Assembly (NCBI RefSeq): GCF_026151205.1
Contig: NC_087082.1
Location: 15,223,365 to 15,287,364 of the forward strand
DNA from: Bolinopsis microptera
Taxonomy: Eukaryota; Ctenophora; Tentaculata; Lobata; Bolinopsidae
Length of the DNA: 64,000 nucleotides
Direction of reading: 5' to 3'
The notes under the pieces are model-generated. The model was not told the DNA's origin, did no database searches, and worked only from the letters and a program-made list of their open reading frames with translations. A program made the translations under genes and the position numbers. Below are positions 10,026-60,500 of this stretch, in pieces (the first letter of the stretch is position 1; the number at the start of each line of letters is the position of its first letter).

Positions 10026-10229
10026 TGCACCCCCAATTTATTGCGAAACTCGTTTTCGAGATAGCAGATGACCATTAAACTGATACCCATGACCAACCTT
10101 GTGGTTCTTTTTTGACCCAATTTTGAAAAATTACCTAATAACTTGCTCAAAAGTAAATGCAACATAAAGTAATTAAAAAAAGCCAAAATATCATAGAAAT
10201 CTACAGAACATAACAATTTAGTAGCATAA

Positions 10230-37174: not shown

Positions 37175-37423
37175 TTTGTCGCGTTGTGAGCTTTTTTGAT
37201 TGAAGTGAAACAAATTTTTTTTAGTGAAACAAATTTAAAATTTTATCCTTTATTTTACAATCATAATATAATAATATTTATAATGTATAAGCCTCCGTTT
37301 TGAAAGTTTTAAATTTTAATACATTCACATTTCTATTTAAAATTCAATTTTATGTACAAGTCAATAACTGGCCGCCAAAGCCGCGCATTCTTGAAAACAG
37401 GATTAACTTGATTATAGTTATAC

Positions 37424-39533
37424 CACTGACCTTCCCACCAAAGTCAAATACCAACTTTCAGTCGAACAGAAAGTCAACAACTCTCAGGTAACATCAAACC
37501 CTAATGATGATCTCACTAACCTGATGGATGTCCTCAAAACAACTGCTGATGAAGTAATCGGGACCCTACCACGCTCCAGAAACCGTAACTTCAGTAGTGA
37601 CTCTACTGTTGAAGCCCTTGTAAAAGAGAGACAAACCCTGCAAGCTGCATTTAACTGTAACAACCAAGCTGCCGACAGAACTCAAGTCCGTACAAGGATC
37701 AACAGGTTACAGAAAGACATCCGTAAGCATCTCAAGAACCTTGGTGACACACGTGCCGATGACATCGCTCGAACCATCATGTCAACAGATGACACAAGGC
37801 AGATGTTTGAAGCTGTGCGTACTCTAGCTGACACTAAGCCCAAATCTACTATCAGTGTCCACAATGAAGAAGGTAACTTTGTTGCCACAGATGCTGGTAA
37901 AGCTCAAGTGATCAGAGACTACTACGAAAAGCAGTTCACGTGTGAGGATGAACCACTTCAAGCATTTATAGGGGATGGACGCTGCCTAGACATACCCATC
38001 ACATGTGATGAAGTAAAGAAAGCCGCCCAATCTCTCAAGAACAACAAAGCCACTGGTCCAGATAAAGTCTACAACGAGTGGTTGAAAAATGCTGGTACAA
38101 AATTCTGGTCAAAATATGCCGAGATCATCAATAACGCATTGGAGACCAATTCATTTCCTGATGTTATAGGTGAAGCCATCATCACCCCCTTGCCGAAACC
38201 TCGCAAACCAGCCGGTCCTGTCATTAGTCTACGACCTCTATGTCTATCAAATGGTGCTCGTAAGATATTATCCATGATTGTACTGAAGAGAATCGAAGAC
38301 AAAGTTGATGCTTTCACTGGTAGCACGCAGGCGGGGTACAAACATGGTAGGAGTTGTGGTGATCTAGTGTGGGCTGAGCGGATGTTGATATCGGTTGTCA
38401 CGCGTAAACACTTCCAGTATCACAAGATGGGCATAGATATGTCTCGAGCATTTGACACAATCAAACGCCAGACAATACTTGACCTCCTTGTCAAAGCTGG
38501 ATGCACAGACGACGACCTCAGGCTAGTAAGACTCCTCTTAACCAACACCATGCTCAAGGTCAGAGTGGAAGGAGAACTATCTGCTGTTTTCGAGAGTCTT
38601 CTTGGATCCTTTCAAGGCGACAGTCTCTCCGGCAAGCTTTTCACTCTTGTCCTTGCAGGAGCTCTTATAGAACTACGCCATCGACTAGCAGAATCTCCCC
38701 CACACATACCCAATCCCCCTGTTTCTAAAGAAGGTATGCCACTGGAGTCAGCGTATTCAGATGATTGTAACTTCATGAACGTGGAAAAAGAATCCTTAGA
38801 AGCTATCCTACCAATAGCCAAGGAAGTCTTCAAGGAGTTTAACCTGTTCATTAACACAGAGAAAACAGAATTTACCCATGTTTTCCTCGCTCCTGTTGGA
38901 GAAACAATCCCTGGTCGTGATGATACCATGTTACGTGGAAATGAAGATTGGCGGAAGAGTAAGATTCTTGGGTCACTGTTGTGTAGTGAAAGTGATATAG
39001 CTGCTCGATGCATTGCTGGGAACAATGCCTTCTATAAGTTCACCAAGATCTGGTCTCAGCAGAATATCTCCGTTACCAGAAAGATAGCAGTATACGAAGC
39101 CCAAATTGTATCAATCATCATGTACAATTGCAGTAGTTGGTGTCCTACTGCAAAGTCACTAGAAAAACTAGACATTTGCCATAGAAAACACCTTAGATCA
39201 TTACTGAACATTTATTGGCCCCATGGAACAATATCTAATGCAAACTTATACCTAAGATGTAACTCAGTAAAGCTATCAGATCGTGTCCCTAAAGCAAGGT
39301 GGAAGCTCCTAGGTCATATCTTGCGTAGTGCTGATGACTCCCCCGCTGCATTAGCGTTAAAGTTTGCTGTCACAACAAACTGTAAAGGGCGCGTCGGTGC
39401 GCATCGTAAGAATTTGTTCAAGATTATTGTGAATGATTTGACCCGTAGAGGTTTAAAACTTAACTCTTTGAATGATCTTAATAAGCTTAAGATATTAGCT
39501 GATGATAGAGTTGCTTGGAGAAACAAATTTTAA
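37424..39533 (+). CDS. Reverse transcriptase ORF of the nested LINE (endonuclease truncated away)
   Basis: The frame runs from the truncation point. The first in-frame ATG is 37524, giving 669 residues. RT blocks are ITPLPKP, RPLCLSNGARKILSMIVLKR, MGIDMSRAFDTIKRQ, SFQGDSLSGKLFT and AYSDDCNF, so the catalytic box is YSDD rather than YADD. A C-terminal region with RKHLRSLLNIYWPHG, then ARWKLLGHILRSADDSPA, is typical of several LINE clades. No stop or frameshift was seen, so the copy is young, but without an endonuclease it cannot move by itself. It belongs to a different clade from the other LINEs here. Confidence 0.88.
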
Positions 39534-39630: not shown

Positions 39631-41012
39631 ATAGTTATACGACTATGTAAATTAAGAACTATCCGTGGTTTTTTCTTTTAAATAAATAAATTATAATTTT
39701 ACCTAAGTCCAAAGCCAGCTTTGAAAAATTTACTATTAAATCATAATATATCGTCAACTTTAAATATTTACAATGCAACAATTCATTAATCTGTAAACAC
39801 GCGTACTCCAGCCCCTAAACGCATAAATTGTTATGCGGCGCGGCTCAAGCCGCGCACGCACGTATTATTTTATACTGTTTGCTTTCTAATAAATATCGTG
39901 CCAATGTGTACGTCTAAATTGTAAACGTTCATGTTTTGTGTAAAGTGAATCCAATTGGGACTAGTGACAAGGATAAGGACCCAAGTGCCTGTACGGCTTT
40001 TTCGGGCCCCTGTGGACCACTACTCTTGAATTATCACTCTACAACATTGAACATCTATATCTACTACGTCATTTGGCAATTATTTGTTATTGTCATTAAT
40101 CTAACTTTCTAATTAATTGCCGAGGGGGAAGAGTAAACGCTTCACATTAAAATTCAATATACAAAATTCAAAACCATCAATACGGTATTAAATATTATGG
40201 ACAAGTCTATAGATCTATTTCGTAGTCATATATGCACATGATTTGCTTTATATTATATTATCTTAATACTGTAATGAAGTACAGTAGGATTTGTGTTTCG
40301 AGAAAGAAAGGTTGCGGTCAAATTATTAACAAAAGTAAACAAAAGTCCATCAGGGACTCCGTGGAGTCGAAAAAGGTACACGGCTGCTGTCTGGTGCTGC
40401 TAGGCATTTATTGATCAAGATGTTTTATTGTATTGATTTATAATGATTCTATTGTTCGTGACTAATCAAGTTCTAAGTGGAGGTATAAAGTGCTGCTCAA
40501 GATACTTCGTCATCTCATGTCCAGTATAATGATTAAGATAGTATACAATGCAGTTTTAGTAGTTGACCCATACAGTTAAGTCCGTCATAACTCACAATCG
40601 TTAAGTCGTCGGTCAATTGTCAAAGTCGTTGTGTGTTTATTCGTTGAGATAGCAGTAAGATAAGATGTTACGCGCGCGCGCGCGTTTAATCCCGTCGACG
40701 TGAAATGTGACAATGAAAACGCCATAGAATTATTATTTTCGCGCGTTACGTAGAGTTTACCAGTGTGTAATACTAGTTAACACTGGGTGTACACTGAGTG
40801 TAAGTGTAAGTTTCATATACAAGCCGTTGAATATTTCCAATTTTGAGTGTATCGTGAGCATGTTTTACAGTGCGATTGCTCGGTACTAGTGTGTTTGTGT
40901 ATATATATATATATATCATTTGTGGAGTATGGTGTAAGTAATGTTTTTGGTTGGAGTGCAGTGGTTATATGTATGAGAAAAGATATATGGTCATTTTAGT
41001 AACTCACATAAA

Positions 41013-44000
41013 TCAGAACTTGAGCTCATTTGTGGCAAAATTAAGCTCACACCAATCAAGTGTATCATGCTTGAATTGCAATTCTCGTAAGGCAATTTTC
41101 AATATATTCTTAAACCCGTTTGTCGGAGTATTAAAACTTATCTTACTTGATGTTTGTCGACAGCTGTTCCACATGTAGGATGATTGGTAGATGAATTGTG
41201 AGGATGGTTGTGATGTAATGAAATAATCCTCTCGTCGTGGTGACCTGTTAAATGATGAGTACAGTGATAATGGTTCCTCTAACTTATTAATTTTGAATAG
41301 TTCTAAGAGACAAGTGTACTTGTACAGATTGTGGACCGTCAACAACCTGTGGGTTTTAAACAAGGGCTTGGAGTGTTCTTTTTGGTAAAAGTCCACCCCC
41401 AGTCTTTGCTTATCAACAGGTCGTGTTCGGGCACACGTTTTAAACTTCTCTAGGTAAGCTTCTCTATCCCCAAACAGAATTCTTATACACTTTTTCTGTG
41501 TTTTAAAGATAGGTTCAAGTCGGTTATTGCTAATACCACCCCACACAGATATTCCAAATCCTAAATGTGATTCAAATAGAGTATGATATAAATCCTTATA
41601 ATACTGCTTTGGGACAATGTGTCGTATTCTGCACAGCTTTCCTACTTCGCATTTAAGTTTTGAGTTAAGTGACTGGGTATGTGATTTCCAGTTAAGTTGG
41701 TCGTCAATAATAACGCCTAGAAATTTAGCTTCTTGAACTCTTTTAATAACTACATTATTTAAAGTTAGTATGTTCTCGTCATTTTCTACTTCCTCTTTGG
41801 CCCGTGAGGGTTTAAAATGAATAAAACAACATTTCTTAATGTTAATATGTAATAAGTTTAGTTTCATATACTTGTACACAAATGATAGAACTTCATTTCC
41901 TTTTTCGTATAGTCTTTTGACACATGTGTCTTCTATAAATATGTTAGTGTCGTCGGCAAATAGTATAAACTTTCCTATAATTGATGAGTTACGGATGTCA
42001 TTAATATAAATAATAAAAAGTAAGGGACCAAGACAGCTCCCCTGCGGCACTCCATAGACTACTGGAAGTTTCTCGGATTCTTCACCTAATACCGAGACAT
42101 ACTGGTATCTGTTCGACAGGTAACTTGCTATAAGGTTATTTGCATTTCCACGGATTCCATAATTTTCTAACTTATGCAGTAACTTTTCATGTGATATTGT
42201 ATCAAAGGCTTTACTAAGATCAATAAATATTCCAAGAACGTGTTGTTTTTTCTTGAGGCAAGATTCTACGTGGTTCACTGAGTAATTTAGGGCATAACTG
42301 GTCGAGTGATTTTTACGGAATCCGTACTGGTTTTCATATAAGGAGTTCTGTGAATGAAAGAAGCTGTATAATCTATTGAATATAATCTTTTCAAATATTT
42401 TACCAAACACAGCTAGCGTTGATACAGGTCTATAGTTTTCAAGGAGTTCCTGGTTATCTTTCTTGTAAATGGGACTAATCCTTCCAACTTTAAGGTCATC
42501 TGGAAATATGCCATCTTTCATACATTCGTTATACAGTACAGTGAGTAAAGGAGTAACTATTTTAGAGGACTGCTTAATTACATGAATCGGTATGTCACTT
42601 GCCTTGCCATTTTTAAGTTCAGATATGATTTTGCTAACCTCGTCTGTTGTGCAGTCATGCATGTAAATGCTGGAAGTGTTTGAAAGCGGTAGATAATCAT
42701 AGAAACTAGGTATACTGTTTATGTTAATCTGTCCAAGATCATTGTAAGCGGTATTTAGGTCAGAGGCTAATGATACAAAATATTTATTGAATTCGTTTGC
42801 TATGATCCTTCTATTTGTTATCTTAACGTTGTCTATGGTGAACAGCGGCTTTATTTCACGCCGCCGTTTACCTCTTATACGATTTATTAGTTCCCAGGTC
42901 TTTTTACTATCACCGCTATTTTCAGCAAATTTACCAGAGAAGTATTCTGTTTTCACAGTTTGACGTGTTTTCTTTAGGACTTTTCTGTATTCTTTGTAGA
43001 TAAGGTAGCGACTACGTTTTAGTGAGCATTCAGGGCACTGGCAAATGCCGCCCTTGTTATCAGTTTCCCCGAGTTTACATTTTCTATTTCTTATCTCAAC
43101 CCAATTTTCGTACAGTTTATGCTGATTATTAATTGAGCAAATGAGACCGGGAGTTATCCAAGGGTTAACCTGAACAGTTCTCTTAGAGGTTTTCGGGGTC
43201 TCTAATTTAAACGATTTTTCGACGCAGTTTTTGTAAGTGTCATGGAATTCAGTAAAGTTATGGATTGTTTTAGTTTTAAGCTCATCTTCAAGATCCACTA
43301 GGAAGCCGTTAACATTTGATTGACAGAAGTCGTAATATTGTTTAAAAGAAGTTTTTTCAGAGTTGACTTCAACATTCCAGTTAAATGTGTTAAAAATAGG
43401 TGAGTGATGAGTTATTCGTTCTTTTAGGGTGCCTGAAGTAATCACATTCTCAATATCGTTAGTAATAATGTTATCTATGCAGGATGCTTTACAGCCTGGT
43501 TTTTCGTGGGTAACAATAGATATTAACGGACAAAATCCTTTACTGAATAATATTTCTTCATATTTTTGAACATTTTTGTTATCTTTATCATGAAGATCGA
43601 TATTAAAGTCTCCAGCTAGATAACTAAACTTCGGCATGTGATCAAGAAGGTTAGAAAGTTCAACTAGAGCTTGGGAAGTACAGCCACTTGGTGGACGATA
43701 CAAAACACCTACATTAACAGGTTGATCTTCGTTACTTAATGATAAGACAAGTATTTCTAGATGTTCTGTGACTTGTGATATATTCTCAATTACAGTAGCA
43801 TTTAATTTATCGTCAACATAAAGGGCTACTCCAGTGCCCTTTTGTTTGTTAGGTGCTGTGTCCTGATAGTAACTATTATAACCGTCGAGCTGAAATAGAT
43901 TGCTTAATTCTTTTCCAGTGTTGGTTTCAGCTAGGGCTATTACGGAGAATTTTGTTTTGTACCTACAGGTTTCAATGGCAAGGTTGTCAAAATTTGATTT

Positions 44001-44366
44001 ATTTCCATCAATATTTTGAAAGAGAATAGATGATTGTTTCTTTACTTGGTTGCAGAGAATATTTGTAAGGTCAGATGCAGTGTATGAGTTACAATCATTT
44101 AAAGTATTTGAGATTTTGGTTGTGTATTCGTCTAGGTTGTTGTCGTCGTCGTCATTGTCAGTGAGTAGTTTAAATGGGTTGTATTTAACCTTGTCTAAAT
44201 GGATACAACGAGTACAGTAAAACTCATTAGATTGGCTATTTGGATTTGATTTGCGATAGCATTTATGGTGCATTATGCAGTCACAGTGAAAACATTCAAC
44301 TATTGTTTGGCCGATGACTATGTTCTTAGAACAGACAGGACATACCTCCTTAATGAGGGGAGTCAT
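41013..44366 (-). CDS. AlkB-LINE 1 ORF2: zinc finger, endonuclease, reverse transcriptase
   Basis: 1117 residues from the ATG at 44366. Residues 9-54 form a PHD/RING-like finger (CPVC, ECFHCDC, HHKC, FYCTRC). The endonuclease follows (SILFQNIDG, ALAETNTG, YLAGDFNID, SCIDNIITND, THHSPIF). The usual SDH motif reads T-H-H, an Asp-to-His change. The RT has NYRPVSTLAVFGK, GIFIDLSKAFDTISH, GVPQGSCLGPLLFIIY and FADD. The ATG overlaps the ORF1 stop as ATGA, suggesting stop-restart translation. The frame is complete, so the loss of ORF1 integrity is the main defect of this copy. A relative lies at 56002-56709. Confidence 0.93.
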   Translation of the reverse strand: MTPLIKEVCPVCSKNIVIGQTIVECFHCDCIMHHKCYRKSNPNSQSNEFYCTRCIHLDKVKYNPFKLLTDNDDDDNNLDEYTTKISNTLNDCNSYTASDLTNILCNQVKKQSSILFQNIDGNKSNFDNLAIETCRYKTKFSVIALAETNTGKELSNLFQLDGYNSYYQDTAPNKQKGTGVALYVDDKLNATVIENISQVTEHLEILVLSLSNEDQPVNVGVLYRPPSGCTSQALVELSNLLDHMPKFSYLAGDFNIDLHDKDNKNVQKYEEILFSKGFCPLISIVTHEKPGCKASCIDNIITNDIENVITSGTLKERITHHSPIFNTFNWNVEVNSEKTSFKQYYDFCQSNVNGFLVDLEDELKTKTIHNFTEFHDTYKNCVEKSFKLETPKTSKRTVQVNPWITPGLICSINNQHKLYENWVEIRNRKCKLGETDNKGGICQCPECSLKRSRYLIYKEYRKVLKKTRQTVKTEYFSGKFAENSGDSKKTWELINRIRGKRRREIKPLFTIDNVKITNRRIIANEFNKYFVSLASDLNTAYNDLGQININSIPSFYDYLPLSNTSSIYMHDCTTDEVSKIISELKNGKASDIPIHVIKQSSKIVTPLLTVLYNECMKDGIFPDDLKVGRISPIYKKDNQELLENYRPVSTLAVFGKIFEKIIFNRLYSFFHSQNSLYENQYGFRKNHSTSYALNYSVNHVESCLKKKQHVLGIFIDLSKAFDTISHEKLLHKLENYGIRGNANNLIASYLSNRYQYVSVLGEESEKLPVVYGVPQGSCLGPLLFIIYINDIRNSSIIGKFILFADDTNIFIEDTCVKRLYEKGNEVLSFVYKYMKLNLLHINIKKCCFIHFKPSRAKEEVENDENILTLNNVVIKRVQEAKFLGVIIDDQLNWKSHTQSLNSKLKCEVGKLCRIRHIVPKQYYKDLYHTLFESHLGFGISVWGGISNNRLEPIFKTQKKCIRILFGDREAYLEKFKTCARTRPVDKQRLGVDFYQKEHSKPLFKTHRLLTVHNLYKYTCLLELFKINKLEEPLSLYSSFNRSPRREDYFITSQPSSQFIYQSSYMWNSCRQTSSKISFNTPTNGFKNILKIALRELQFKHDTLDWCELNFATNELKF

Positions 44367-45340
44367 GGTTGGTAACCATCCACGTGACCCTGACTAGCAG
44401 CAGCAGGAACAACAGGACCAGTTTCTCTTCCAGCAGTCGCATCCCTGTAGGATCTATCGTCTACCCTTGTGGACCTCCTCTTCCTTTTGTCGATACCACC
44501 GTTAATCCTGAGAAGAACAGTGTTACGAATAAATTGACCTAACTTTGCTAGTCCCCTCCAGTTGAGGTGAAGGAAGTCCGGTTTTTGGTATTTGTTGAGG
44601 TCGCGAGAGAGAGAGCGGTCAAGGAGACCATCCCTATCACAGAACTCATCAAATCCATCCACATAACTGACACCAAAATTGGACGGGAGCAGCCTACATC
44701 GAATCAAACTGTTAAAGTATATAAGCTTTCTATTTAAATCAGCACGTTTAGAAGGAATTGTTGGACAAACATATACATGCACACCCGAATTAATAGATTG
44801 AATCTGGGCAATTTTTGAAACTAGATGGTTGTAGATTATATCAATATCGTTTTGGCTTTTTACATCTGTTTGTTTCAGGTCATTAACCCCACACAATATA
44901 ACACAGTTTCTATAGCCACAGGACACATAAGGATCAATGCTATCGACAGTTGGGGCAAAGAATCGTTTTCCAGGAAGCCATTTGCCGAATGACTTGGCAG
45001 GATCAGAACCGAATTTCAGTCCGCCGGTGTTCGAGTCCCCAATGATACATGTAGCGTTTCTATTCAGGGAACTGACTGATCTCAATGTTATACTGTAGCG
45101 CAGCCCAGTTATCTCGCCTGCATCGATAGGATGGTGGAACAGTGCTTGGCTACGACGAGTCATTACATATAATGATCCTGGGCCACATAGTTGCTTGTGC
45201 TCATCAATACCTGTACTAGCATCAGAGAAAGAAACATGACATGCAGTACCAAGAGAGACTGTAAAGATACTTGATTCCGGGTGGATAGAAGGCTCGTTAT
45301 CAGAGTGTCTAGGCAAGGTGCTGCTTGTGCCGTCAAACCG
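44363..45340 (-). pseudogene. AlkB-LINE 1 ORF1, 3' part: end of AlkB-like dioxygenase + SGNH esterase
   Basis: This half starts within the AlkB-like 2-oxoglutarate/Fe(II) dioxygenase: the HxD iron ligands (RHSDNE), TVSLG, a distal His (FHHPI) and RYSITLR matching the AlkB RxNxTxR motif. An SGNH/GDSL hydrolase follows with all catalytic blocks: IIGDSN, ILCGVNDL and DFLHLN. The N-terminal half of ORF1 lies at 51235-52395. Removing the inserted element and one target duplication joins the halves in frame (LVN to RFDG) as one product of about 712 residues. SGNH esterases are known in CR1-type ORF1 proteins; the AlkB part could repair or demethylate element RNA or DNA, which is inference. Confidence 0.9.
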
Positions 45341-45350
45341 ATTCACCAAA
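45341..45350 (+). repeat. Target-site duplication, left copy (AlkB-LINE 2)
   Basis: ATTCACCAAA, directly before the inserted element; the right copy is ATTTACCAAA at 51235-51244 (9/10 identical). Confidence 0.85.
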
Positions 45351-45569
45351 CTAATTACAACACTACAAATCTATTACATTTATTGAGGTATGAGATATGA
45401 TAGACGAGCGTAAGTGTTGACGTGCAAAGGACTGCTGTGAGTGTACTTGAAGATTACTCATCCTCCTCCTCATCAAAACTATTCTCATCAAAACTACTAT
45501 CTGGACTGAAGGTATTGCGTTTACAGTGTTTATTGTGCTTCTGAACATTGAACTCTTGATAATATAACT

Positions 45570-47444
45570 ATGTCAAATAATCAGAGCTCAGACATTAGTC
45601 TCCACTCTTGTGAGCGCCCTTTAGAACATTTGAACTTTTCATTCCAGTCTGAAAAATCAGAGAACTGTAACAATTGTCTGTCAAAAGACATCAAGATTGA
45701 CTTTTTAGAAAAAAAGTTGTCTTTATTGAATGAAATTATCAGAACTAGTGATCTCATTGCTCAGTACAATGATAGTCTCATATCAGATCAAACTCAAATA
45801 CAAGAACAGAGTTTTAAGTGTGAAAATTTGCTGCCAAACTTATCAGAGGAGATTGAATGTGAGATCATAACCATTACCCCTCAGTCACACGTTGTTATCA
45901 ATCAAGTAGAAGCGTTTGATGTAGATGACATTGTTGTGGAAGATGTTGTATCGGACAGTTTGTTTGTTGACAACGATGTCGTGGACAAGGTTGTTCCACA
46001 GGAGGTTGTTGGAAACGAGATTGTTATCAGTGAGATTGTTGTTAACGAGGTTATGGCAGACGAGGATGATGTGTCTGATCTCCCTGTATCTACTGCTACT
46101 GGTGAATCACGGATCAACACCCCTAAGCCCAGAGACAAATATCCAAACTTGGTCCCTGCCCCTGTCTACGATCCTATAACACCGGGGCCAATGAATATAT
46201 CTGTAACTTGTTCCCCATCACCAGTGAAACCAGTTACCCTACTAGATGATGGTCCATTCTCTAAATTTTCACTTGATCTATTAATGGAAGAACTTGAGTT
46301 CAGTCACGGTTTTAAAAACAGGAAATCGGTTTATTTTGGTGACTTTCCCTATGAGTATTCAGGTGCAACACATGACCCAAAAAGTGTACACAATGATTCC
46401 TACCTTGCTAAACTCAGCTCCTACATTAATGTGATATTACCCAATTTCAGACACAATAGTATTCTCGTCAATCTATATGAAACTGGAGCAGAGTTCATGC
46501 CAGCTCATAGCGATTCTGAATCATGTATTGTAGAACACTCTGATATTGTAACCATTTCACTTGGTGCGACGAGAACACTGCAAATTAGATCAAACGGCAG
46601 CAATGAAGTTGTGGGCTCTGTGCAGCTTCAGCATGGAGATGTCTTCATCATGTCCAAATTGTCTCAGGCTGACTTTCAACATGAGATACTGCCAGACGAA
46701 ATGTGTGATGAACCCCGGATCAGCATCACCCTAAGACTGATGAAGCCCCCTAGGATCACTCAGTCAACTGAGTTTGGTCTGCGTTCACCGCCCCCACCCA
46801 TCCCTCATTCAGGACACAAACTGACAGACTCTTCTTCACCTGCACTCTCAGTTTGCAAACAGTCAGCTAAAGCTTCACAAAAGTCTGTCCTATTCATAAG
46901 CAGCTCTATGTTCAGGTTTCTTGATGCGGACAAGTTATCATCGTCCACTGTTAGTGCTAGTAAACTGTTTTATCCTGGGGCTGATGCCAAAGTAATGTTA
47001 AATAAACTAAAAACTGACCTACACTCTGTTCCATCCCCATCTATTATTTATATTATGACAGGAACTAATAATGTGAACACAGTCTATTTTGGCTCAAAGT
47101 CACTGAAGGATGCAGCGGGTGACATTAGTAATCTCTTAAATTATCTCAAGTCAGTGTATCCGAATGCAGCAATTAATGTTCTCAATATTCTTCCCAGGAG
47201 TACAAAAGGCCGCAATGATGTTGTGGCAGAGCTGAATAAGGTTATTCAGGATATGTGTAGCAAAGATTCTTGTTTTAATTACATTAGCACCCATAATTTA
47301 TTTAACTATAATAGAAGTGGATTCAGGAAAGAATTTTATTTTGCCAGACCATCTGCAAAAATATCTGATAACTGTCACCTCAATACAAGCGGTGTTATTC
47401 GACTTGCTAAATTTCTGAAGTATTGGGCCCATAAGCAAGTTTGA
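45570..47444 (+). CDS. AlkB-LINE 2 ORF1: AlkB-like dioxygenase + SGNH-fold domain
   Basis: 624 residues from ATG. The N-terminus has a CNNC pair and a helical segment (IDFLEKKLSLLNEII), then an acidic Val/Asp-rich linker (VVDKVVPQEVVGNEIV). Residues ~240-392 are an ALKBH2/3-like 2-oxoglutarate/Fe(II) dioxygenase: NSILVNLYETG, iron ligands H313 and D315 (AHSDSE), VTISLGATRTLQIR, H371 (FQHEI), and R383-to-R389 RISITLR matching RxNxTxR. An SGNH-like domain follows (VLFISSSMF, IIYIMTGTNN, DNCHLN). Its first block is S-S-S instead of G-D-S and its GxND block is GTNN, so esterase activity is doubtful while the dioxygenase looks intact. It is unlike the PHD-bearing ORF1 of the host element at the N-terminus. 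Confidence 0.9.
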   Translation: MSNNQSSDISLHSCERPLEHLNFSFQSEKSENCNNCLSKDIKIDFLEKKLSLLNEIIRTSDLIAQYNDSLISDQTQIQEQSFKCENLLPNLSEEIECEIITITPQSHVVINQVEAFDVDDIVVEDVVSDSLFVDNDVVDKVVPQEVVGNEIVISEIVVNEVMADEDDVSDLPVSTATGESRINTPKPRDKYPNLVPAPVYDPITPGPMNISVTCSPSPVKPVTLLDDGPFSKFSLDLLMEELEFSHGFKNRKSVYFGDFPYEYSGATHDPKSVHNDSYLAKLSSYINVILPNFRHNSILVNLYETGAEFMPAHSDSESCIVEHSDIVTISLGATRTLQIRSNGSNEVVGSVQLQHGDVFIMSKLSQADFQHEILPDEMCDEPRISITLRLMKPPRITQSTEFGLRSPPPPIPHSGHKLTDSSSPALSVCKQSAKASQKSVLFISSSMFRFLDADKLSSSTVSASKLFYPGADAKVMLNKLKTDLHSVPSPSIIYIMTGTNNVNTVYFGSKSLKDAAGDISNLLNYLKSVYPNAAINVLNILPRSTKGRNDVVAELNKVIQDMCSKDSCFNYISTHNLFNYNRSGFRKEFYFARPSAKISDNCHLNTSGVIRLAKFLKYWAHKQV

Positions 47445-47593
47445 ATTTTCAGAAAGATTGTTACCATTTATTTCATCTAGATAAGGGATAATTACACATT
47501 GTTCCTCATGTTTATTGAAGTTTTAGAAAGTTTTTTATTATCTCATAAAGATTTGCCAGTTCTGCAATTTATCTTATTCTGACAAGTTTATAG

Positions 47594-50500
47594 CAGCATA
47601 AATTGGAAAAATTTTCATGCTCTCACAGCAGTTCTTGCATTAACCCGTGCATTAGTAAAATCACAGTTTCATACCATGCCAAAAAGCTTGCAGTGGGACA
47701 TTGCAACATGCAGGGAGGACTAACAGGTATGCCAAAATGTCTTGAAATCCAAGATCTAATCTGGAAAGAGAAATTAGATGTTTTATGCCTGAATGAAACA
47801 AATCTTAAGTCGGATATTGACTCAGCCAGTCTAAACCTACCCAAGAATTTTACTTTTATCCGCAAAGACCGTCCTAACGACAATGGTCATGGGGGATGTG
47901 GCATTCTCATCAGTGAGCACATAAAGTTTAAAATGATTCAACTAAACTTAGTTTTGCAATATGACCAAATCGAGGCTATTTGGATCCATCTTACAGATTG
48001 CAATATTTTCATCTGCTGTTTCTACAGATCTGAGTTGTTTAGTCCTCTTGACAAATTTTTAGATTATATGACAGACTGCATGATGAGTATAGGAAGTAAG
48101 AATGTTATTTGGCTGGGCGATGTAAATGTAGACCAAAACAACATCAGCAGTATGAACTATAAGAAATTAGACATTACAATGAAAATGTTTGGAATGGTAC
48201 AGGTAGTTCAGGATATTACCCGCATTGCTAAACTAGGAAACAGAATCACAAAGACCACAATCGATGTTGTCATAACAAACACTTACTCCAAGTTTCTTGA
48301 CTGCAAAGTCCTTGATGATTGTATAGGAGATCATCAGGTCGTAAAGTTCATTGTCGATTTCAATGTGCATAAGGCCTCAAAATTCAAGAAGTTACTAATA
48401 AGAGATCACAGCAAAATGAATGTTACTGCTCTTAAAGAATTTTTGGAAACTTGTGATTATAGACCAATAATAGATTCAACTAGTCTGAATGATGCAGTTG
48501 ATGGTTTAAACGAACATATTGATCACTACTATGATCACTTCTGTCCAATTAAACAAATTAAGTGCCATAGTGATTACATCCATAAGCCATCTCCAGAATT
48601 TTTAGAAAGTAAGAAATTGAAAGGGAAACTTTACCGTAAATTTTTAACACACAACAAGAACAGACGTATACATCCAAATGGTCTTATACACTGTAATAAA
48701 TGTGACTCATTATGGATGGCATATAAACGGCAGAGAAACTATTCAACCTATTTGTCTAGAATTAATAGGAAGACTAACTTAGCAACAGAACTGAAAGCCA
48801 AGTGTGCCATGAATGATCTAAAGGGTGTATGGAAAACGATAAAGACAGCATCAAATCTGCCTGTTAAAGCTAACAATATCAATAACAATCTTGATGCTGA
48901 AACCACCAATAAATATTTTGCTGAAATAGGTCCAAAGATCCAAGCAGAAGTGCAGCTGGAAAATGAAAATGAATTTCTATCTTATCTACAAAATGAGCAG
49001 ATTGACAACGAGACCAGCTTGAATAGCTTTACTGAAATAACTGAGTCCAATATCTTAGACTATGTGGCAAGTATCCCTTGTAGCAAATCCACTAATGATC
49101 ATATACCATTGAGAGTGTTTAGACAAATTTTACCTGCATTTATTGCTCCATTAACACATCTTGTAAATTTGAGTTTATCCAGTGGCATCATGCCAAACAG
49201 CTGCAAGGTTGCAAAAGTCACCCCAATCCATAAGGATGGTGATACTGAGAATCCTAGTAATTATCGACCAATCTCAATTTTACCGATTCTTGGAAAGTGC
49301 ATCGAATTCTGTGTGAACTCCCAACTGACTCAATATCTTGATGAAAAGGGAATACTTTCAGAGCATCAATATGGTTTCCGTAAAGATCACTCTACAACTT
49401 ATCTCATGTTAGATCTGTTTGATCGTATATTTACTGCTAAGAACAGTGCCAAGCATCCTGCAATTATCTTCCTGGACATCAGAAAGGCATTTGATACTGT
49501 TAACCATGATATTCTCATTCAAAAGCTGAAGCATTATGGAATAAAAGATACTGCATTGAGCTGGTTTAGGAGCTTCCTCACAGATAGATTACAGCAAACT
49601 AGAGTTGGGAGTAGGATAAGCAGTTTACATTCATTGAACTCTGGAGTGCCTCAAGGAAGTATATTAGGACCAATTCTATTCAGCATTTTTATCAATGACC
49701 TGCCTAATGCATGCCTATTTTCTAAACCTTATCTATTTGCTGATGACGGTGCATTATATTTTGACAATATATCTAGAGGAAACTATGGTAACATCAAACA
49801 AGAGTTGAAATTAGTTATCAGATGGCTTCAGGCTAATAAACTATCCCTGAATAATGAAAAAACAAAACTAATGATCCTTGACTCTAAGCCTAACCTTGAT
49901 GCCATCCTTGTTGAAATTTGTGATGACCTTACTTTGGTAATCTGTGAAACTAAATCCCATAAGTACCTTGGACTTATAGTTGACAGCAGATTGACATTTA
50001 ATGAACATATTGATAACATTAAGAAAAAGATATCCAAAAGAATTGGTGCTATGTATAGATCAAAAAAACTTCTCCCTCTTAAGTTCAGGAAGATGTTTGC
50101 TAATGCACTTATGTTGCCACATTTTGACTACTTAGACACCATCTGGTCAAGAACATATAAAAAACGACTAGGAGAGTTAGATATCATGTACAAAAAGGTT
50201 GCTAAAATAGCCCTAGATGTAAACATCAGAGAGAGGTCGGTTAATGTATACAAAAATATGGGATGGCTTCCTCTCCATTTGAGACGACAGGTTCATCTTA
50301 GCTCATATATGTACCGTATAATCAATGAAACATGTCCAAAGCATTTTATCGGGAAATTCTCGTATATTTCTGGTGGATCACGTGAGGCAGAAAACTGCAA
50401 TCTTTATACTCCTAAATCAAGATCTCACAAGGAGTTTAACTATCTAGGAACTAAGGCCTGGAACATATTACCAAAGTCCCTTAGAGAGTGTGACGACGTT

Positions 50501-50623
50501 AAGAAATTTTCTAAGTTATACAAAGAAACTCTTATGAATATGGTGCTAACTGATGAGAATTACCAAGGGGATAACTCTTACGATAAATTCATGATCCCAC
50601 CCAACACTAGCCAATGTATCTAG
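47594..50623 (+). CDS. AlkB-LINE 2 ORF2: endonuclease + reverse transcriptase
   Basis: The frame is open from 47594 to the TAG at 50621-50623 (about 1006 residues from the TTG at 47603). The endonuclease has KLAVGHCNMQGG, LCLNETNLK, VIWLGDVNVD, TTIDVVITN and GDHQVVKF. The RT has [45 protein letters not shown] and FADD. No ATG precedes the endonuclease's first conserved Asn-Gln region, so initiation probably depends on a non-AUG codon or on coupling with ORF1, which ends 149 bp upstream in another frame. No stops or frameshifts occur. A short Cys-rich stretch (CSHSSSC, CINPC) lies ahead of the endonuclease. Confidence 0.93.
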   Translation, partial: QHKLEKFSCSHSSSCINPCISKITVSYHAKKLAVGHCNMQGGLTGMPKCLEIQDLIWKEKLDVLCLNETNLKSDIDSASLNLPKNFTFIRKDRPNDNGHGGCGILISEHIKFKMIQLNLVLQYDQIEAIWIHLTDCNIFICCFYRSELFSPLDKFLDYMTDCMMSIGSKNVIWLGDVNVDQNNISSMNYKKLDITMKMFGMVQVVQDITRIAKLGNRITKTTIDVVITNTYSKFLDCKVLDDCIGDHQVVKFIVDFNVHKASKFKKLLIRDHSKMNVTALKEFLETCDYRPIIDSTSLNDAVDGLNEHIDHYYDHFCPIKQIKCHSDYIHKPSPEFLESKKLKGKLYRKFLTHNKNRRIHPNGLIHCNKCDSLWMAYKRQRNYSTYLSRINRKTNLATELKAKCAMNDLKGVWKTIKTASNLPVKANNINNNLDAETTNKYFAEIGPKIQAEVQLENENEFLSYLQNEQIDNETSLNSFTEITESNILDYVASIPCSKSTNDHIPLRVFRQILPAFIAPLTHLVNLSLSSGIMPNSCKVAKVTPIHKDGDTENPSNYRPISILPILGKCIEFCVNSQLTQYLDEKGILSEHQYGFRKDHSTTYLMLDLFDRIFTAKNSAKHPAIIFLDIRKAFDTVNHDILIQKLKHYGIKDTALSWFRSFLTDRLQQTRVGSRISSLHSLNSGVPQGSILGPILFSIFINDLPNACLFSKPYLFADDGALYFDNISRGNYGNIKQELKLVIRWLQANKLSLNNEKTKLMILDSKPNLDAILVEICDDLTLVICETKSHKYLGLIVDSRLTFNEHIDNIKKKISKRIGAMYRSKKLLPLKFRKMFANALMLPHFDYLDTIWSRTYKKRLGELDIMYKKVAKIALDVNIRERSVNVYKNMGWLPLHLRRQVHLSSYMYRIINETCPKHFIGKFSYISGGSREAENCNLYTPKSRSHKEFNYLGTKAWNILPKSLRECDDVKKFSKLYKETLMNMVLTDENYQGDNSYDKFMIPPNTSQCI

Positions 50624-50895
50624 GCAGTTATGTTATTTCGGTTAAGTTATCTCAGTACATAAGTGAATCCAATCTATCCCCTGCAATCAAAGTATTTCCA
50701 TGCCTATTAAGCTATTACAGGAAATTAGGAACATCAGTGGAAAGGTGCACTGTCAATCATTATTGCTCCATACCTCCAGTCCTCCTGTTATGTGCAATTC
50801 TCACTGCTATGTATGCTCCTCATTTGTATCAATTATATTGATGCTACATTGTTATTGAATATGAAATAATTTTCAACCGTATTAATTTTTTAACT

Positions 50896-51025
50896 TATTG
50901 TAAATAGCAAGTTTGACAAAGGGATTACGTTTATTTTACCCGGAGTTCGTTTAAGTTTAGTATTGTAAATAGTTAATTTGACGAAGGGAATACGTCTATT
51001 TTACCCTGAGTTATGTTTTAGTTCA
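50896..51025 (+). repeat. 65-bp tandem duplication in the 3' UTR of AlkB-LINE 2
   Basis: Two diverged units begin TATTGTAAATAG and contain GGGATTACGT or GGGAATACGT then TTATTTTACCC or CTATTTTACCC. It could be part of the 3' signal recognised by the RT. Confidence 0.75.
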
Positions 51026-51234
51026 ATCTTGACACAATTTTAAAATTATAATTTAATTATTTTATATATATGTATTGTCCATAACTAGGGTGGCCTGCTA
51101 ACAGAACCATGATCTGCCTTGATTCATCCTTCAGCACAGAGAAAAGCTCCTTTTTTTATACATTATGATTACAGAGGATCTGATATTTAGATATATATTG
51201 CTGTGCTGTAAAAATTGACTTTATTTATTTATTT

Positions 51235-51244
51235 ATTTACCAAA
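51235..51244 (+). repeat. Target-site duplication, right copy (AlkB-LINE 2)
   Basis: ATTTACCAAA, directly after the (TTTA)n tail of the inserted element. It encodes LVN of the host ORF1 in reverse complement, as does the left copy. Confidence 0.85.
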
Positions 51245-52395
51245 CAGCTGTTAACCTGAGGTTGGTCACCTGAACAAAACTCACTGTTGATTCTGTCGAT
51301 GAGTTTTCTCAAGGGTGGTGGTATTGCCTTTGGTGTCTTGGACGACTTAGATCCAGGATAATCGTACCGTTCCCCATATGATAGGCAGGAGCGTTCGTTT
51401 TCAATTTTGAAGTCTGTGCTGCTCAAATCAAATAGGTCAACTAGTTCTTCCGCAGTCTTCTGATCTATAAAATCGTTTTTGAACAGTTCCACAGGTTTCT
51501 GCTCATGATGAGGTGGCTGCAAAAGGACAGGTGGTGCTGGAGGACGAGGATGCTGTGCAGGAGGTAGGTTGGGAGGAATGCAAGGACCAGGGTTATGCAA
51601 TGGCTGTATAGAACTTATAGACTGTTTTAGTTCAGCAATGCCTGCAGCTACAGTGGGCTCATTTGCAGAAAGTGCGGTGAGTTGTTCTGAGATGCTCTTC
51701 AGAAACTGCTCAGATGAGTCTGTAGATGGGGATGATTCAGGGGAAGGTCTAGATGCTAAAAGTTTAAGGTCCCTCTGTAGTTCAGCAATGTTGGTATTTA
51801 TTGATTCTAATGATTTGTCATGGAGCTTTATTTCATTATTTAGGCCATTAAGGGAGTTCTCTTTAAGAAGCAGGTGTTGAAGGTGAACGTCGAACTGGGA
51901 GAGAGTGTCAAGGTTCCTAGAGAACTGTTCGAAGTCAAATTTTTCAAGAGCTGAGCCTGCTGAGCTTGCTGATGCCACAAGTGCACTGACAGTTTCAAGA
52001 TTCTTAACAGCTGTAGATGCTTCAAAATCTGAGTTGGCCTGTTGCAAAGCCCTTGTGTTCCTGCAGCTGTAACAAAATTCGTCTCTCTGTTTCTTCAGTG
52101 TTGATACTGGTGCCACGAAGCAGTATGGGCACAGCCATTCTACCATGGAGTTGATAGCTGACCTCGTTATACCTTTCATAGACAGGCAGTCCACATGCCA
52201 CTCTTGATGACACTTAGAACAGTCAATGAGGTAAACTTTACCGTTAAAAGAGCATTGACATGGACATTTCTTCTTGTCCCTATGTTTCCTGTTTACCTGA
52301 TCTTCATTGTCCACTGTAGATTCGGCTAAAATGTTGCGAGACAAGCTATTAGATGTTTTAGGAGTACCTGAAGTCTTCCTAGAATTTGACGCCAT
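51235..52395 (-). pseudogene. AlkB-LINE 1 ORF1, 5' part: PHD finger, coiled coil, start of AlkB-like domain
   Basis: The true ATG is at 52395 (a longer frame needs a TTG). Residues ~44-92 form a PHD finger (CPCQC, IDCSKCHQEWHVDC, WLCPYC). A helical region follows with likely coiled coil (ESINTNIAELQRDLKLLA) and a Pro-rich linker. The last ~80 residues match the AlkB N-terminal substrate lid (SYGERYDYPG, then IPPPLRKLIDRI and NSCLVN). The frame then runs into the TTTA tail of AlkB-LINE 2 and stops. The missing remainder is at 44363-45340. Confidence 0.88.
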
Positions 52396-52679
52396 TTTCA
52401 AATCAAATGTAAGTAATACTGACCAAATAGATCCGACTTGGGGTCGGCTCCCGTTAAGTGTTTTGTTTTGGAGGAGATTAGGACTTCAGAGTTGATGACC
52501 CTAGTAAAGTGTAGATGACCCTAATAGAGTGTAGAATGTAGATGACCCTTAGCTTAGTACGCCCCTTCGGGGGAGTTGTAACATACCATTCCTGAACACT
52601 CAAATTATTTGTTATATAGTAGTGTTGAAAGTATTGAAAATTCAATTATTTATTATATATATATTATATATATATATTT

Positions 52680-54561: not shown

Positions 54562-57500
54562 GTAAACGAAACGGAGTATCACCATCTGTATTGAGCAATG
54601 TTAGTTGAGTAAATGTGTGAATCATGGCTTGCAGACCAAATCAGCATTTTTCTGTGTTCCTCTTTGCAGTATTTGCATATTGTCTCCTGCTTAAGATTGC
54701 GCGTATTTCTAAGCTATTTATTGGTCATGTGATAGCTATTGGCTTTATCTATGATATCAGTTTTGAAATGTTAGGTTAAAACTGTGCCCTATTAATGTGC
54801 ATGTCTTACACATGTCTTATTGAACATGTAAATTTATCCTGCTGTTTGTCCAATCGTGTTTGTAATGAATGAGTTCATTTGCCTTATTCAGGTGGAATCA
54901 GCATGCATTATCAAGATTCTGGCGTCACATTTCTCCCGCAACAATTCCCTGGAAACGTCACAACAAAAAATTTGAATTTTCTGTCGTGTCCTACAACATT
55001 CTAAGCCAGTTACTACTGGAAAATAACAGGTAAGGTTATGGTGAGTGTTGTTGGTTTCAAATTCTATTGTTGCAGTGTAGTAGGTCATGATAAGTATCAA
55101 TTCTCTTCGGTACTTTGTTTGATACTTTGTTTGATACTTTGTTTGATCTCGATCACAATGTTAATCAATTTTTTTATCAGTGTAATGATTGGAAATTATA
55201 TTTTATTGATGATCAATAACCTTAAATCCCACTCAGTTACCTATACAGAAGTATCAAAAACGAGTATTTAAAATCACAAAGATTTCAACAAATCATTAAA
55301 GAGCTAGAATTATATGATCCTGATGTGAGTTCTTTACAAAAACTTGATAATTATAACTAGTTCAATGAAACAAGAAATTTCAATGAAACAAGAAATTTAA
55401 TTTTAGCACATTTTACAGAATAAAAAGATGTAAAACAATTCATAAAATATAATGCCCATTTGGTGTATGACTTTTTGTCCTTGACTGCTTGTTTGGTTTT
55501 GGAAGGACAGGTAACTAACGGGGCAAGGAATGCGCGTGCCTGGGAGCTTTTGCACACACCAAAACGCTAGTTCAGTTAAGTTTTTAGAGACAAGGCTCAC
55601 ATTAGGACTATACGAAAAATTGTTAGCAGACATTAGGGGTTCTGTTTAAAGTTTTTACTATCTAGGTTGCAGTCTTGTTGTGACAAAAAGTCTACACTAA
55701 AACATGCTTGATTTTATATTGTGTAGTTCAAGGATTAAAAATGCACCTTCAAGGTGGATATTGGAGAGCAGGCGAAAGATTATGGCTTAAATTTATCAAT
55801 GGTTATAATAAGCTATAAATATTTTAAACTATACAATGCTAATTAAAAATTTCTTTATACTTCATTCTCAAATTAAAATTTAAAAATTCAAAAATATACA
55901 TTCATTTTATTAAAACTTTCTCACACGTACTTTACTCACAGGACAAGACTTGGAAAACAGTAGCCTAGGGTAATTTAATTTAGATGTGTGTGACCAGCCA
56001 GTTATAATGTTTGGAAAATAATATTTGTGCAGTCAAAGTCTTTTACGGTCCAATCAAGCAGGGCGTGGTTATGTTGATTAGCTAGTAGCGCACGTTTTAG
56101 CTTTCCTCGCAAGCACATTACACTAGTAGTAAAATCAGTCATTCTGAACTTTGGGGTTAAGATGTTAAAAATTTTGGTTGATCTAGTGTTGTGATTGTCA
56201 GGTGGGTCTGCCTGACAGATTAGAAGGCAGGGTTTCCTTGATGAACATGTGTAACCCTCATGTAAGGATATTGGAGCACGGAATTTCATTATCTTGTAGA
56301 GCTCGAGGTAACTGTGGTATGTATATAGATTTTGTATAGCTAGAATATTATTATGCTTGAATATCGGTTTGGTGTGCTCTTTTATGAAGAATTTTTGGTC
56401 TAGTTTCTGGTGTCCTATAGGCCTAGTACGTGCACAAGTCTTAAACTTATCAAGGTACGCCAGTCTATCACCAAATAGTACTCTGAGACAGTACTTCTGA
56501 GCAGTAAATAATGAGCTTATACGTTGCTTCGCTGCCCCACCCCATACAGATATACAGTAGGAAAGATGTGATTCGAACAGGGTATAATATAATTGTTGGT
56601 GTAGAAATTCTGGAAGGGAGCAGCGGAGTCTACATAAAGTGGATGTGGAATGATTTAGAGTTCGCTTAAGAGCTTTGATGTGATCTTCCCATGATAGGTT
56701 AATCAACAAAATCTAAATTTGTTATTCAAGTTGAAGAGTTATATTTTAGTTTCTATTGCACCCCCTTTCCAAGTATACCACCGTCCACCAACTTATTCTA
56801 AGATACATATATTAACTGTAAACACTAATAATCATTCTTCCATCAGATTGTTTGTCTGCAGGAGTTTGACCACCAGATCAGAGCTAAATTTGCATCCCAC
56901 TTCGCTCCAAGAGGTAGGTGTTTCGAGAAGATTATGGGATAGTAAGTTTTATGTTTGAATCCCTCTTTGTTGCTAAAGTCTATGGTAATTGGAAATGTCC
57001 TGATAGTTTCAAATGTCAGAACCATTTTGATAAATTTCGGAGTTGTATCAAAGACAATTGATGCATCTCTGAATGTAAGTCAGGGGACCCAACTATATGG
57101 TAAACATATTATATTGCATTCTACATCCGCTACGGTTATGCAATCCAAGAATCAAGATATCTCTCTCTGAAATGAAACATAACACTCTGTAAAATCCGGA
57201 TTGGAATATTTGTAGTACCAGTGCACAAAAAGGGCGATAAGTCTTCGGTTGAGAACTACAGGCCTATCTCGTTAACATCTCTTGTAATGAAAGTCTTTGA
57301 AAGGTGCATAAAGACTGCATTATACGCTGCATGCTCTGATCTGTTGGATGACCGACAACACGGTTTTGTTAATGAACGTTCATGCACAACCCAAATTATA
57401 CCTTTCACGGACAATCTTGCACTTGCATTGAATAACAGGTCCAGGACTGATATAATATATTTTGATTTTGCGAAAGCTTTTGATAGCGTTTCGCATGACC

Positions 57501-60500
57501 TTATTTTAAGTAAATTAAAGAATATTTTTAATGTCGATGGACTAATGCTTAAATTTATTAAGTCCTATCTTGAGGGGCGACAACAACAAGTAGTGATAGG
57601 AGGCCAAACGTCTTCTTCTCTACCAGTTCGGTCTGGTGTCCCTCAAGGTTCTATACTTGGCCCTTTATTGTTTGTAATATTTATAAATGACATGTTCTCC
57701 TGTGTCTCTGAAGGCACCAATATTGCCCTTTATGCAGATGACACTAAAATTTGGAGGGAGATTCTTAGTTACCTTACTCGGGATTATTATAACCGGGATA
57801 AAGTGGTGGGTTTTGGAAGATTCCGCCATATTTTTCCCGGTTAAAAATTTTACCAGTCATAAAAAAACCCGCCGACTCAGATTATGGGGTTCCAAGGGGG
57901 TGGTGATCATCATATTTTACCTGAAGTCTCATATGTGCCAGAGAAGACTTTTGAAGCAGTGGATGGAGGGCTGTAACTTTATTGGCGGTTGCTACCATAA
58001 TTTCGTTATAAAAATCACAATTTGGTTATAGAAATCAGATTTCAGGGTGGACCGTGATTCTCAATTTTCTTGCCCATGAAGTGAGTAAACTGTGCCACTA
58101 TTTCATGGTCCACGGTGGATTGATTACTGGAGCAGTTGAAGATGCAAAGCCAAGACGTTCCCCAATACCAAGCGGTGGGCAGGAAATTAAGCTCCGGCTG
58201 ACCTTCAGAGCAGTAGCCCCATTAGCGGACAAAATGAAAGTCTTGTTAAGACAACAATACAATTACAACTTCGAATTTGACGGTCAGCAGCAGGGGGATA
58301 TCAATAATGATAATGGAGGGGACATTAGCGATAATGAGAATGAGAATACGCTTTAATGAAGATTTGACTTATTATTGCTATAGATTTATTTTCCTTTAAA
58401 TACTAGACGTGTCTTTTTTTCTATTTCTGAGTAATATCAGTAACTGTAAATTGAAATAACTTCTTTAACAAGTAACAAAAACAGAAATTTCGGTTGAAAA
58501 TTTGTTGACCTCTGAAAAAAAACTTGAAAGGTCGGCCACCGGTAAATACATGATGACCGGGATAATTTGGCTAATAATAATTTTAAAAGTTCCACCCACA
58601 AAAGTGCAAAGCCCTCTCTGTGTCCCTGCAAAGAAACGTGCTGGATAACTTGCCATTCAATACCTTCTTTTATAAACTTTCTGGAAGTGATATTGACTTT
58701 GTGCCCTCTCAGTCAGATTTAGGAGTCGCAATAAACTCCAGGTTTAATTGGGGTGCACAATGTAAAGCGCTTGTTTCCTAAGCTACCTCTAGACTTGGAC
58801 TACTTAAAAGAACATGTCATTTCACTACTGATAAAAGGCAGAAAAGATCGTTCTATTTAGCGATAATTAGGTCTATATTTGAACATTGTTCTGTCATATG
58901 GTCCCCTCAATCTGCAACTCATCTTCAACAGTTTGTTGCTATCCAAAAGAGGGCTATTAAATGGATCAATGGTGAACCTTACTCCAGTTATAATGACGAT
59001 AAACTTGCTACAGAGCAAAAGAAACTAAATATTCTCCCTGTTGAACAGAAGTTTATTTATAACGATCTTATGACCTTCTATAAAATAGTGAATAGCATAA
59101 TTCCAGTTTCGCTCCCTACATATATAGTCCTATGCCGTCCAGAGGGCACCCGATACACTAGACACAATGCTCAAATAATTGATAGGTCGGATACTTCAAC
59201 TTACATGAGTACCACTGTGCCCTGCTCGGATGCCTTCCGAAATAGCTTTTTTCATATAGATCTATGCTGAAATGGAATAGTCTACCAGTATGTATCCGGC
59301 AGTCAGAGCGGATTTCTACTTTTAAGGCCAAACTGATCAAGTACCTCTGGGCTGCCGATACAGTCTGGCCAGATTAGCTCATCAGTCTTATGAGTCTAAG
59401 AAATTTGTTTTTGTTGGTTACAATTCTGTCCGTCCAATTTCCTATCTGCTTGTCCTTTTCTTTTTTCTTATCAGTTGTGACGGAATTGTAATGAACAAAA
59501 TCTTTATAATTATTTATGATATGTTTGATTACTTGTTAATGTTTGTCATTCAAATTTGGTAGACGGCCCCAACGTTAATGTGGCTCTTGCTATGTGTTGG
59601 TTCAGCCGAATTAATTATTATATAATCAAGTTTATTTTTCTCGTTAGTTGTCATCCGGCCAAACATTAAGCAACTTATATTGCAGTACCATTTATCATTT
59701 AGTATATCAAAATATGTCATTGTAACTTTGCATGGCTGAAATGTAACGCTTGATTTATATATATAATGATTAATTGAATTTTCAAATTAAAAAAAATAAA
59801 AAAATTATTTATGAGTCGCATAGTTGACATTTTTTCTTGGATAAAATTTCTATTAATCCCGTTTCCTGATAAGAGCCTTTTCCTTGTCACATAAAACGGG
59901 ATCAATAGAAATTTACTCAAGAAAATACTCTTCTTAAACTTAAATTTAAACTTAAACTAAAACTCTACTGGGCTCTCCTGTGTCACCAAATTACACCTAG
60001 AAGTTTTCAAGAATAAAAATTAGCTTGTTGAAGTATTTTCATATTTAAATATTCTTATATTTTTATATTCGTATATTGACATTTGACATGGTGGATGGTT
60101 GAGCTGGTTTCAAGCACAGGTCGAGCTTGAAACATTCTCAAGCCTCCACTGATTGAATACCATATTACACGTGATGCCCATATAAGGAGTGAATACCATA
60201 TTACAATGTTTATTGTTAAGCAGCAGCTGCTGCATGACCTGTACATTGATATTGTTTTATTGTACTGTAAAAATAAATAATCGTTTTTTTGAAAAATGAT
60301 TTATTTTATTAAATTGATATAATCTAGACTTTTTGCTCAGGTTTTGAAAACATCTATCAAAGAAAACCGCACATACCTTATCAAGAAAAAGATGACGGAT
60401 GTTTTATGATGTACAAAAGAGACAAGTTCAAGCTTATTAAAAACGCCAGTTTAGGCCTCTACAAAGACACTGAGGGATTACTTGATAAACCAAATTGTGC

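Follow-up and report, generated by a model that had tools for sequence, protein, structure and literature searches.

The 64,000-nucleotide stretch of Bolinopsis microptera DNA analysed here, called the window throughout, holds two nested long interspersed nuclear elements (LINEs) on opposite strands, which we refer to as the plus and the minus element. The first open reading frame (ORF1) of each encodes an AlkB domain of the repair type (ALKBH2/3) whose active-site residues are all present, beside an SGNH hydrolase domain. We regard the identity of the AlkB domain as practically certain. Further LINE classes and a Helitron carry the pair too, and the evidence supports purifying selection on the AlkB domain in these elements.

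Domain identity and nesting of the two elements

The Pfam profile PF13532 matches the plus ORF1 with E=3.6e-18 (66.9 bits) and the C-terminal piece of the minus ORF1 (45370..44363) with E=3.7e-10 (40.8 bits), both above the curated cut-off of 31.2 bits, and it matches all aligned members of the two family alignments (26 of 26 and 20 of 20) at E<=0.01. The structure models have the jelly-roll fold of AlkB, and fold searches with the ORF1 AlkB return the 2-oxoglutarate- and Fe(II)-dependent (2OG-Fe(II)) AlkB fold, with ALKBH2/3 as the closest matches. The SGNH matches of the two ORF1s to Pfam lie under the cut-off (E=2.9e-4 and 8.3e-6); this domain is identified by its catalytic S, G, N and D..H blocks and by structure models that predict its fold with confidence, and its top fold matches are bacterial sialate or sialic acid esterases. 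The minus-type profile matches also include 4c1b, an ORF1-encoded protein (E=9.6e-4). The minus ORF1 has in addition a PHD-like finger; in the minus-type alignment, nine rows out of 26 match PHD at E<=0.01. Rows for the PHD finger and the coiled coil are not seen in the Foldseek and VIA lists, which AlkB and SGNH fill and which barely test those parts. A preliminary description had proposed the AlkB-SGNH fusion in both ORF1s on the strength of short motifs, leaving the fold and the family-wide conservation of the H, D, H and R residues to be checked; every motif that it cited is present, and both checks bear the proposal out.

The plus element is inserted inside the AlkB domain of the minus ORF1 and is flanked by the target-site repeat ACCAAAC (Table 1). 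Because the plus element interrupts it, the minus ORF1 is split into 52395..51246 and 45351..44366 (the 7-bp repeat counted once), and excising the plus element with one ACCAAAC copy restores an uninterrupted ORF1 of 712 residues. At the 5' edge, a usable upstream stretch was available for 8 of the 19 other full-length plus copies; the letters AAACTAATTAC found there also occur in three of these eight (L003, L004, L018), so that up to 4 bp of ACCAAAC may be the plus element's own 5' end. Both elements have an ORF2 with endonuclease and reverse transcriptase, which identifies them as LINEs. A 3' repeat tail and a target-site repeat are present in the plus element only; the flanks of the minus element, when inspected, gave an AT run and no target-site repeat. 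The combination of PHD and SGNH in ORF1 suggests a place in the CR1/L2/Jockey superfamily. The preliminary description had recognised the nesting correctly, but was silent on the plus insert cutting the minus AlkB and on the other LINE classes and the Helitron described below.

Table 1. Coordinates of the two elements and their parts within the window.
Feature	Position	Strand	Remarks
Plus LINE, whole insert	45352..51238	+	TTTA repeat at 3' end; within minus-element ORF1; ACCAAAC at both edges
Left target-site repeat ACCAAAC, 7 bp	45345..45351		
Right target-site repeat ACCAAAC, 7 bp	51239..51245		
Plus ORF1, 624 aa from ATG	45570..47444 (open frame 45552-47444)	+	PF13532 match; 20 full-length genomic copies
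Predicted long helix of plus ORF1, residues 34-79, probable coiled coil	45669..45806	+	AlphaFold2 model
AlkB domain of plus ORF1, residues 217-395; H313, D315, H371, R383, R389	46218..46754	+	Profile, alignment, predicted fold
SGNH hydrolase-like domain of plus ORF1, residues 435-624; S446, N500, D600, H603	46872..47441	+	Profile, alignment, predicted fold
Plus ORF2, stop to stop, endonuclease and reverse transcriptase	47594..50623	+	RVT_1 E=5.8e-37, Exo_endo_phos 1.9e-4
Minus ORF1, N-terminal piece: PHD-like finger, helical region, AlkB start	51246..52395	-	
PHD-like zinc finger of minus ORF1	52120..52254	-	Weak in window copy, PHD E=0.028
AlkB N-terminal part of minus ORF1, cut by insert	51246..51435	-	
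Minus ORF1, C-terminal piece: remaining AlkB to ~45074, SGNH ~45064-44432	44366..45351	-	
Minus ORF2: N-terminal zinc finger, endonuclease, reverse transcriptase	41013..44366	-	RVT_1 E=2e-36, Exo_endo_phos 4e-4, Prok-RING_1 5.6e-4

The minus ORF2 starts with a zinc-finger-like stretch, which is the part matched by Prok-RING_1; the ORF2 of L066, a related locus, likewise has such a stretch. Working from the coordinates, the stop of the minus ORF1 overlaps the first ATG of ORF2 as ATGA (44363-44366, minus strand), which suggests coupled translation. A 3' fragment of a minus-ORF2 relative lies at 56002-56712 on the minus strand (40% identity over 228 aa), and the search that gave it shows no AlkB match beside it. 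Further LINE reverse transcriptase ORFs or pieces occupy 257-3178, 37407-39533 and 57176-59270, and repeat arrays (an SPVPCPL-coding repeat and a 10-bp repeat) are present at 9619-10255 and from 32220 to at least 33028.

Genomic copies and selection on the AlkB domain

The genome searched comprises 264.65 Mb in 232 contigs, the window being on contig C11. The plus ORF1 has 81 matches, and 20 of them, the window copy included, are full length with 99-100% identity and no stops; we therefore take the plus family to be young. For the rejoined minus ORF1, where 63 of 1512 first-look candidates were scored, there are 71 matches; ten are stop-free open frames that span residues 1-712 with 99-100% identity, and eight more cover the 712 residues nearly or fully at 84-85% identity. 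The uninterrupted copies bear out the rejoined ORF1. A genome search with PF13532 gives at least 151 matches (from 150 of 587 first-look candidates scored). The best 30 of these AlkB loci (L031-L060), assigned to classes by AlkB sequence, comprise 27 in mobile elements (13 plus-type, one minus-type, six of a fourth LINE class and seven Helitron-type) and three host genes, of which L031 groups with human ALKBH2, and L032 and L033 with ALKBH3; the domain is without stops in all three.

Two protein searches yield 66 and 75 ORF1 relatives, which together with the two window proteins make 143 aligned rows; the set was collected by similarity, so the presence of the domain in it is biased. Each iron ligand of HxD...H, each of the two 2-oxoglutarate arginines and the E of HxDxE is conserved in 141 or 142 of the 143 rows, the exceptions among ligands and arginines being gapped rows (P0041, P0027, P0104) and the unrelated P0141. 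In both family alignments the ligands and arginines are invariant. The two window ORF1s are only about 30% identical in the AlkB-SGNH part, yet both have intact iron ligands.

Ratios of replacement to silent substitution rates (dN/dS; Nei-Gojobori method, own script) are well below 1 in the AlkB domain of each class compared. Between the minus ORF1 and a copy of its 84% subfamily (L067), the ratio is 0.153 for AlkB, 0.146 for SGNH and 0.235 for the N-terminal part. Three pairs of the fourth class give 0.057-0.073 for AlkB, 0.121-0.155 for SGNH and 0.233-0.294 for the linker. The Helitron AlkBs give 0.158-0.296 (five pairs) and their SGNH domains 0.181-0.251 (three pairs), leaving aside two SGNH pairs of 13 codons each, too short for use, at 0.56 and 0.93. 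Three plus-type pairs give 0.151-0.162 for AlkB, with dS saturated. Among young plus copies (17 of the 19 others of full length, with 3-11 differences from the window copy), changes in AlkB are three replacement and nine silent, against 29 and 19 in the rest of ORF1 (Fisher two-sided p=0.0498, one-sided 0.030, on small numbers). The selection that the preliminary description had argued from the intact iron ligands is thus borne out, by the low ratios and, with the reservation about small numbers, by the few AlkB replacements in young copies.

Silent sites also reveal a mosaic between the minus ORF1 and L067. The proportion of silent differences (pS) is 0.02-0.10 in windows within residues 1-180 and 601-690, and 0.43-0.75 within residues 181-600, so that the helices, AlkB and most of SGNH look as if they had been swapped en bloc between subfamilies.

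Other carriers and the ancestry of the element AlkBs

Besides the plus and minus types, three LINE ORF1 classes carry AlkB. The third type is represented by P0063, with AlkB and SGNH by Pfam, and by L066, assigned by eye, in which an ORF1 end is accompanied by an ORF2 39% identical to that of the minus element. The fourth (type 4, L047) has AlkB (2.8e-23), a coiled region and an SGNH-like end (LLLHDSQ, LGVND, LHVSE) recognised by eye, without a Pfam match, and its downstream ORF2 (L062) encodes an endonuclease-reverse transcriptase (RVT_1 E=2e-28). In type 5 (L074), AlkB (E=3.5e-13) is followed by SGNH (Lipase_GDSL 24.4 bits, cut-off 23.6); downstream come pieces of an endonuclease and a reverse transcriptase, whose matches stay under cut-off. 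AlkB-bearing LINEs diverge down to 24.5% identity in ORF2. All nine of the 141 ORF1 relatives that are named by organism come from Mnemiopsis leidyi, which by itself makes a ctenophore host probable, and in a gene model of that species (P0138) AlkB-SGNH continues into endonuclease and reverse transcriptase.

The Helitron type lies outside the window (L052 and L061, at C10:16874343-16884342 of the same assembly, G000). It reads SGNH (3.4e-6, under cut-off), a Pro/Ala-rich stretch, AlkB (E=1.9e-21), Rep (Helitron_like_N 3.2e-22) and helicase (PIF1 6.5e-22) in one open frame of 3388 aa, read as two pieces that share a frame, with one base between them unread. Rep and PIF1 helicase in one protein identify it as a Helitron, on a single copy read through. 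With its first 650 residues as query, more places are found, with frames of 3366, 3321, 3226, 2459 and 2300 aa. We set aside an accidental LINE insertion as the source of the pair, because SGNH and AlkB occur together at 11 places in long matches of at least 47% identity; the 11 places are a manual grouping of match rows, some of them broken, with Rep and helicase read in one copy only.

SGNH thus stands beside AlkB in each element class examined (in type 4 by eye). AlkB precedes SGNH in the five LINE ORF1 classes, either adjacent to it or separated by a long coiled stretch, and SGNH comes first in the Helitron. With five LINE classes and a Helitron as carriers, it follows that mobile elements dominate the best AlkB loci. 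Scans of viral contigs with the two family alignments gave 36 and 34 stretches and no relatives. A scan of genome contigs with two SGNH-derived patterns gave SGNH-only matches in 6 of 45 stretches and is uninformative on prokaryotic AlkB. Bacterial proteins, from Nitrospirota and others (L068-L073), are 24-27% identical to the plus-type SGNH, a possible lead to its origin.

For the ancestry of the domain, an AlkB-only protein search returned 213 matches, of which the best 120 are listed, few of them named, and those as bacterial. The final tree, built from 47 rows and 179 columns, has a branch with support 98/95 that separates 23 rows (the AlkBs of the plus, minus, third and type 5 LINEs and of the Helitron) from 17 short AlkB proteins of that search (P0187 named as bacterial), the three host genes, the two human proteins and two type 4 rows. 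Two earlier trees agree, one joining the plus, minus and third types (Shimodaira-Hasegawa-like approximate likelihood ratio, SH-aLRT, 99) and the other adding the Helitron (95/88). Helitron and type 5 unite at 100/100 and are placed with minus-type rows at 99/94, but the long branch of L074 falls inside the Helitron rows, and the tree therefore gives no direction of transfer. A single clade of all mobile AlkBs, type 4 included, is not rejected by the approximately unbiased test (p-AU 0.391 for the final tree, 0.477 for an earlier one). The comparison rows are the returns of a word-based search, from which a nearer cellular relative may be missing. In one tree, P0064, a 436-aa relative with AlkB and PF02229, falls with the ALKBH2 of host and human.

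Independent acquisition of AlkB by the two window elements is no longer the simplest case, since the 23 mobile rows hold together, and acquisition by type 4 may have been separate. Most likely, AlkB was taken in the past from a cellular ALKBH2/3-like gene, retained by selection and passed between elements as a module, the Helitron AlkB belonging to the same group. The element AlkBs group apart from human and host ALKBH2/3; we nevertheless keep the view that they probably work like ALKBH2/3. More tentatively, and at somewhat less than an even chance, the AlkB-SGNH cassette may circulate within a single animal lineage between mobile elements that are unrelated to each other. As a shared kit, it would serve repair or the removal of host marks by clearing methyl groups (AlkB) and ester or acetyl groups (SGNH) from single-stranded intermediates, in retrotransposons and rolling-circle transposons alike.

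Possible function and relation to known systems

The data suggest that the elements use the pair to repair their own RNA or DNA, or to clean it. ALKBH2/3 are described as demethylating N1-methyladenine (m1A) and N3-methylcytosine (m3C), ALKBH3 with a preference for single strands (PMC7835257). The ORF1 protein would multimerise on element RNA via its helices, the SGNH part would take it to membranes or into a particle, and the AlkB part would remove m1A and m3C from single-stranded element nucleic acid, which in the Helitron would be the single-stranded DNA intermediate. Because these lesions block Watson-Crick pairing and stop reverse transcriptase, their removal would let target-primed reverse transcription yield more full-length copies. 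We give this template repair mechanism about an even chance. It follows the view of Bratlie and Drablos, who prefer repair of methylated RNA as the role of plant-virus AlkB (PMC544882).

A less probable, though serious, competitor is that AlkB erases a methyl mark by which the host silences element RNA or DNA (N6-methyladenosine, m6A; N6-methyladenine, 6mA; or another), as has been proposed for orchid Ty3/Gypsy elements, whose AlkB is reported to demethylate m6A in vitro (PMC9289625). Such a role would explain retention in both RNA-intermediate elements and the Helitron, but the sequence and the best fold matches point to the repair enzymes ALKBH2/3, not to ALKBH5 or FTO. It is improbable that AlkB instead has its target in the host (tRNA, mRNA or protein), or that it serves to bind nucleic acid and can do without catalysis: certain ALKBH enzymes do target tRNA or protein (PMC7835257), but ORF1 proteins are presumed to package element RNA (PMC3905857), and the near-complete retention of the catalytic residues across the aligned rows speaks against dispensable catalysis. 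Although the insert disrupts the minus ORF1 of the window, and some other copies in the genome are broken as well, a chance match is excluded by the E-values, the fold models, residue conservation and the intact copies (10 uninterrupted minus, 20 full-length plus), and functionless, decayed relics by those copies together with dN/dS, which leaves this last explanation hardly any probability.

If the AlkB is active, the elements bring their own repair or eraser enzyme for the copying intermediate, and it becomes a testable claim that template damage or marks limit retrotransposition. The SGNH-AlkB pair in the Helitron would link the function to single-stranded nucleic acid generally, and this animal would be a place to ask which modification its mobile elements must remove.

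An AlkB in a mobile element and in plant viruses, and SGNH and PHD in LINE ORF1s, are already known. Searches of an open-licence library turned up neither AlkB in a LINE ORF1 nor SGNH-AlkB in a Helitron, which does not prove that print is silent on them. The ORF1s of CR1, L2 and RTEX LINEs (with a structure for zebrafish ZfL2-1) share the coiled coil and the SGNH esterase, and AlkB is unnamed in the parts of these papers examined (PMC3905857, PMC5408684). CR1/L2-lineage ORF1s with PHD share that finger and the build from exchangeable modules; the main text of the survey of 448 Jockey-superfamily elements contains none of the terms AlkB, oxygenase, 2OG or demethyl (PMC4120745). Human ALKBH3 and ALKBH2 have the same fold, HxD...H, R...R and E of HxDxE, but are stand-alone cellular repair enzymes, with which the host's own three genes group and the element AlkBs do not. 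Plant RNA viruses, mainly Flexiviridae, are likewise selfish RNA genomes carrying their own AlkB, there in viral genomes and judged recent by the authors (PMC544882), here in a Helitron and in genomic LINEs whose ORF2s are down to 24.5% identical. The Phalaenopsis orchid Ty3/Gypsy elements are likewise a retrotransposon family with a 2OG-Fe(II) AlkB domain, in that case a long terminal repeat element with a separate ORF named ALKBH5-like by its authors (PMC9289625), whereas the AlkB described here is ALKBH2/3-like, is accompanied by SGNH, and resides in LINE ORF1s and a Helitron of an animal.

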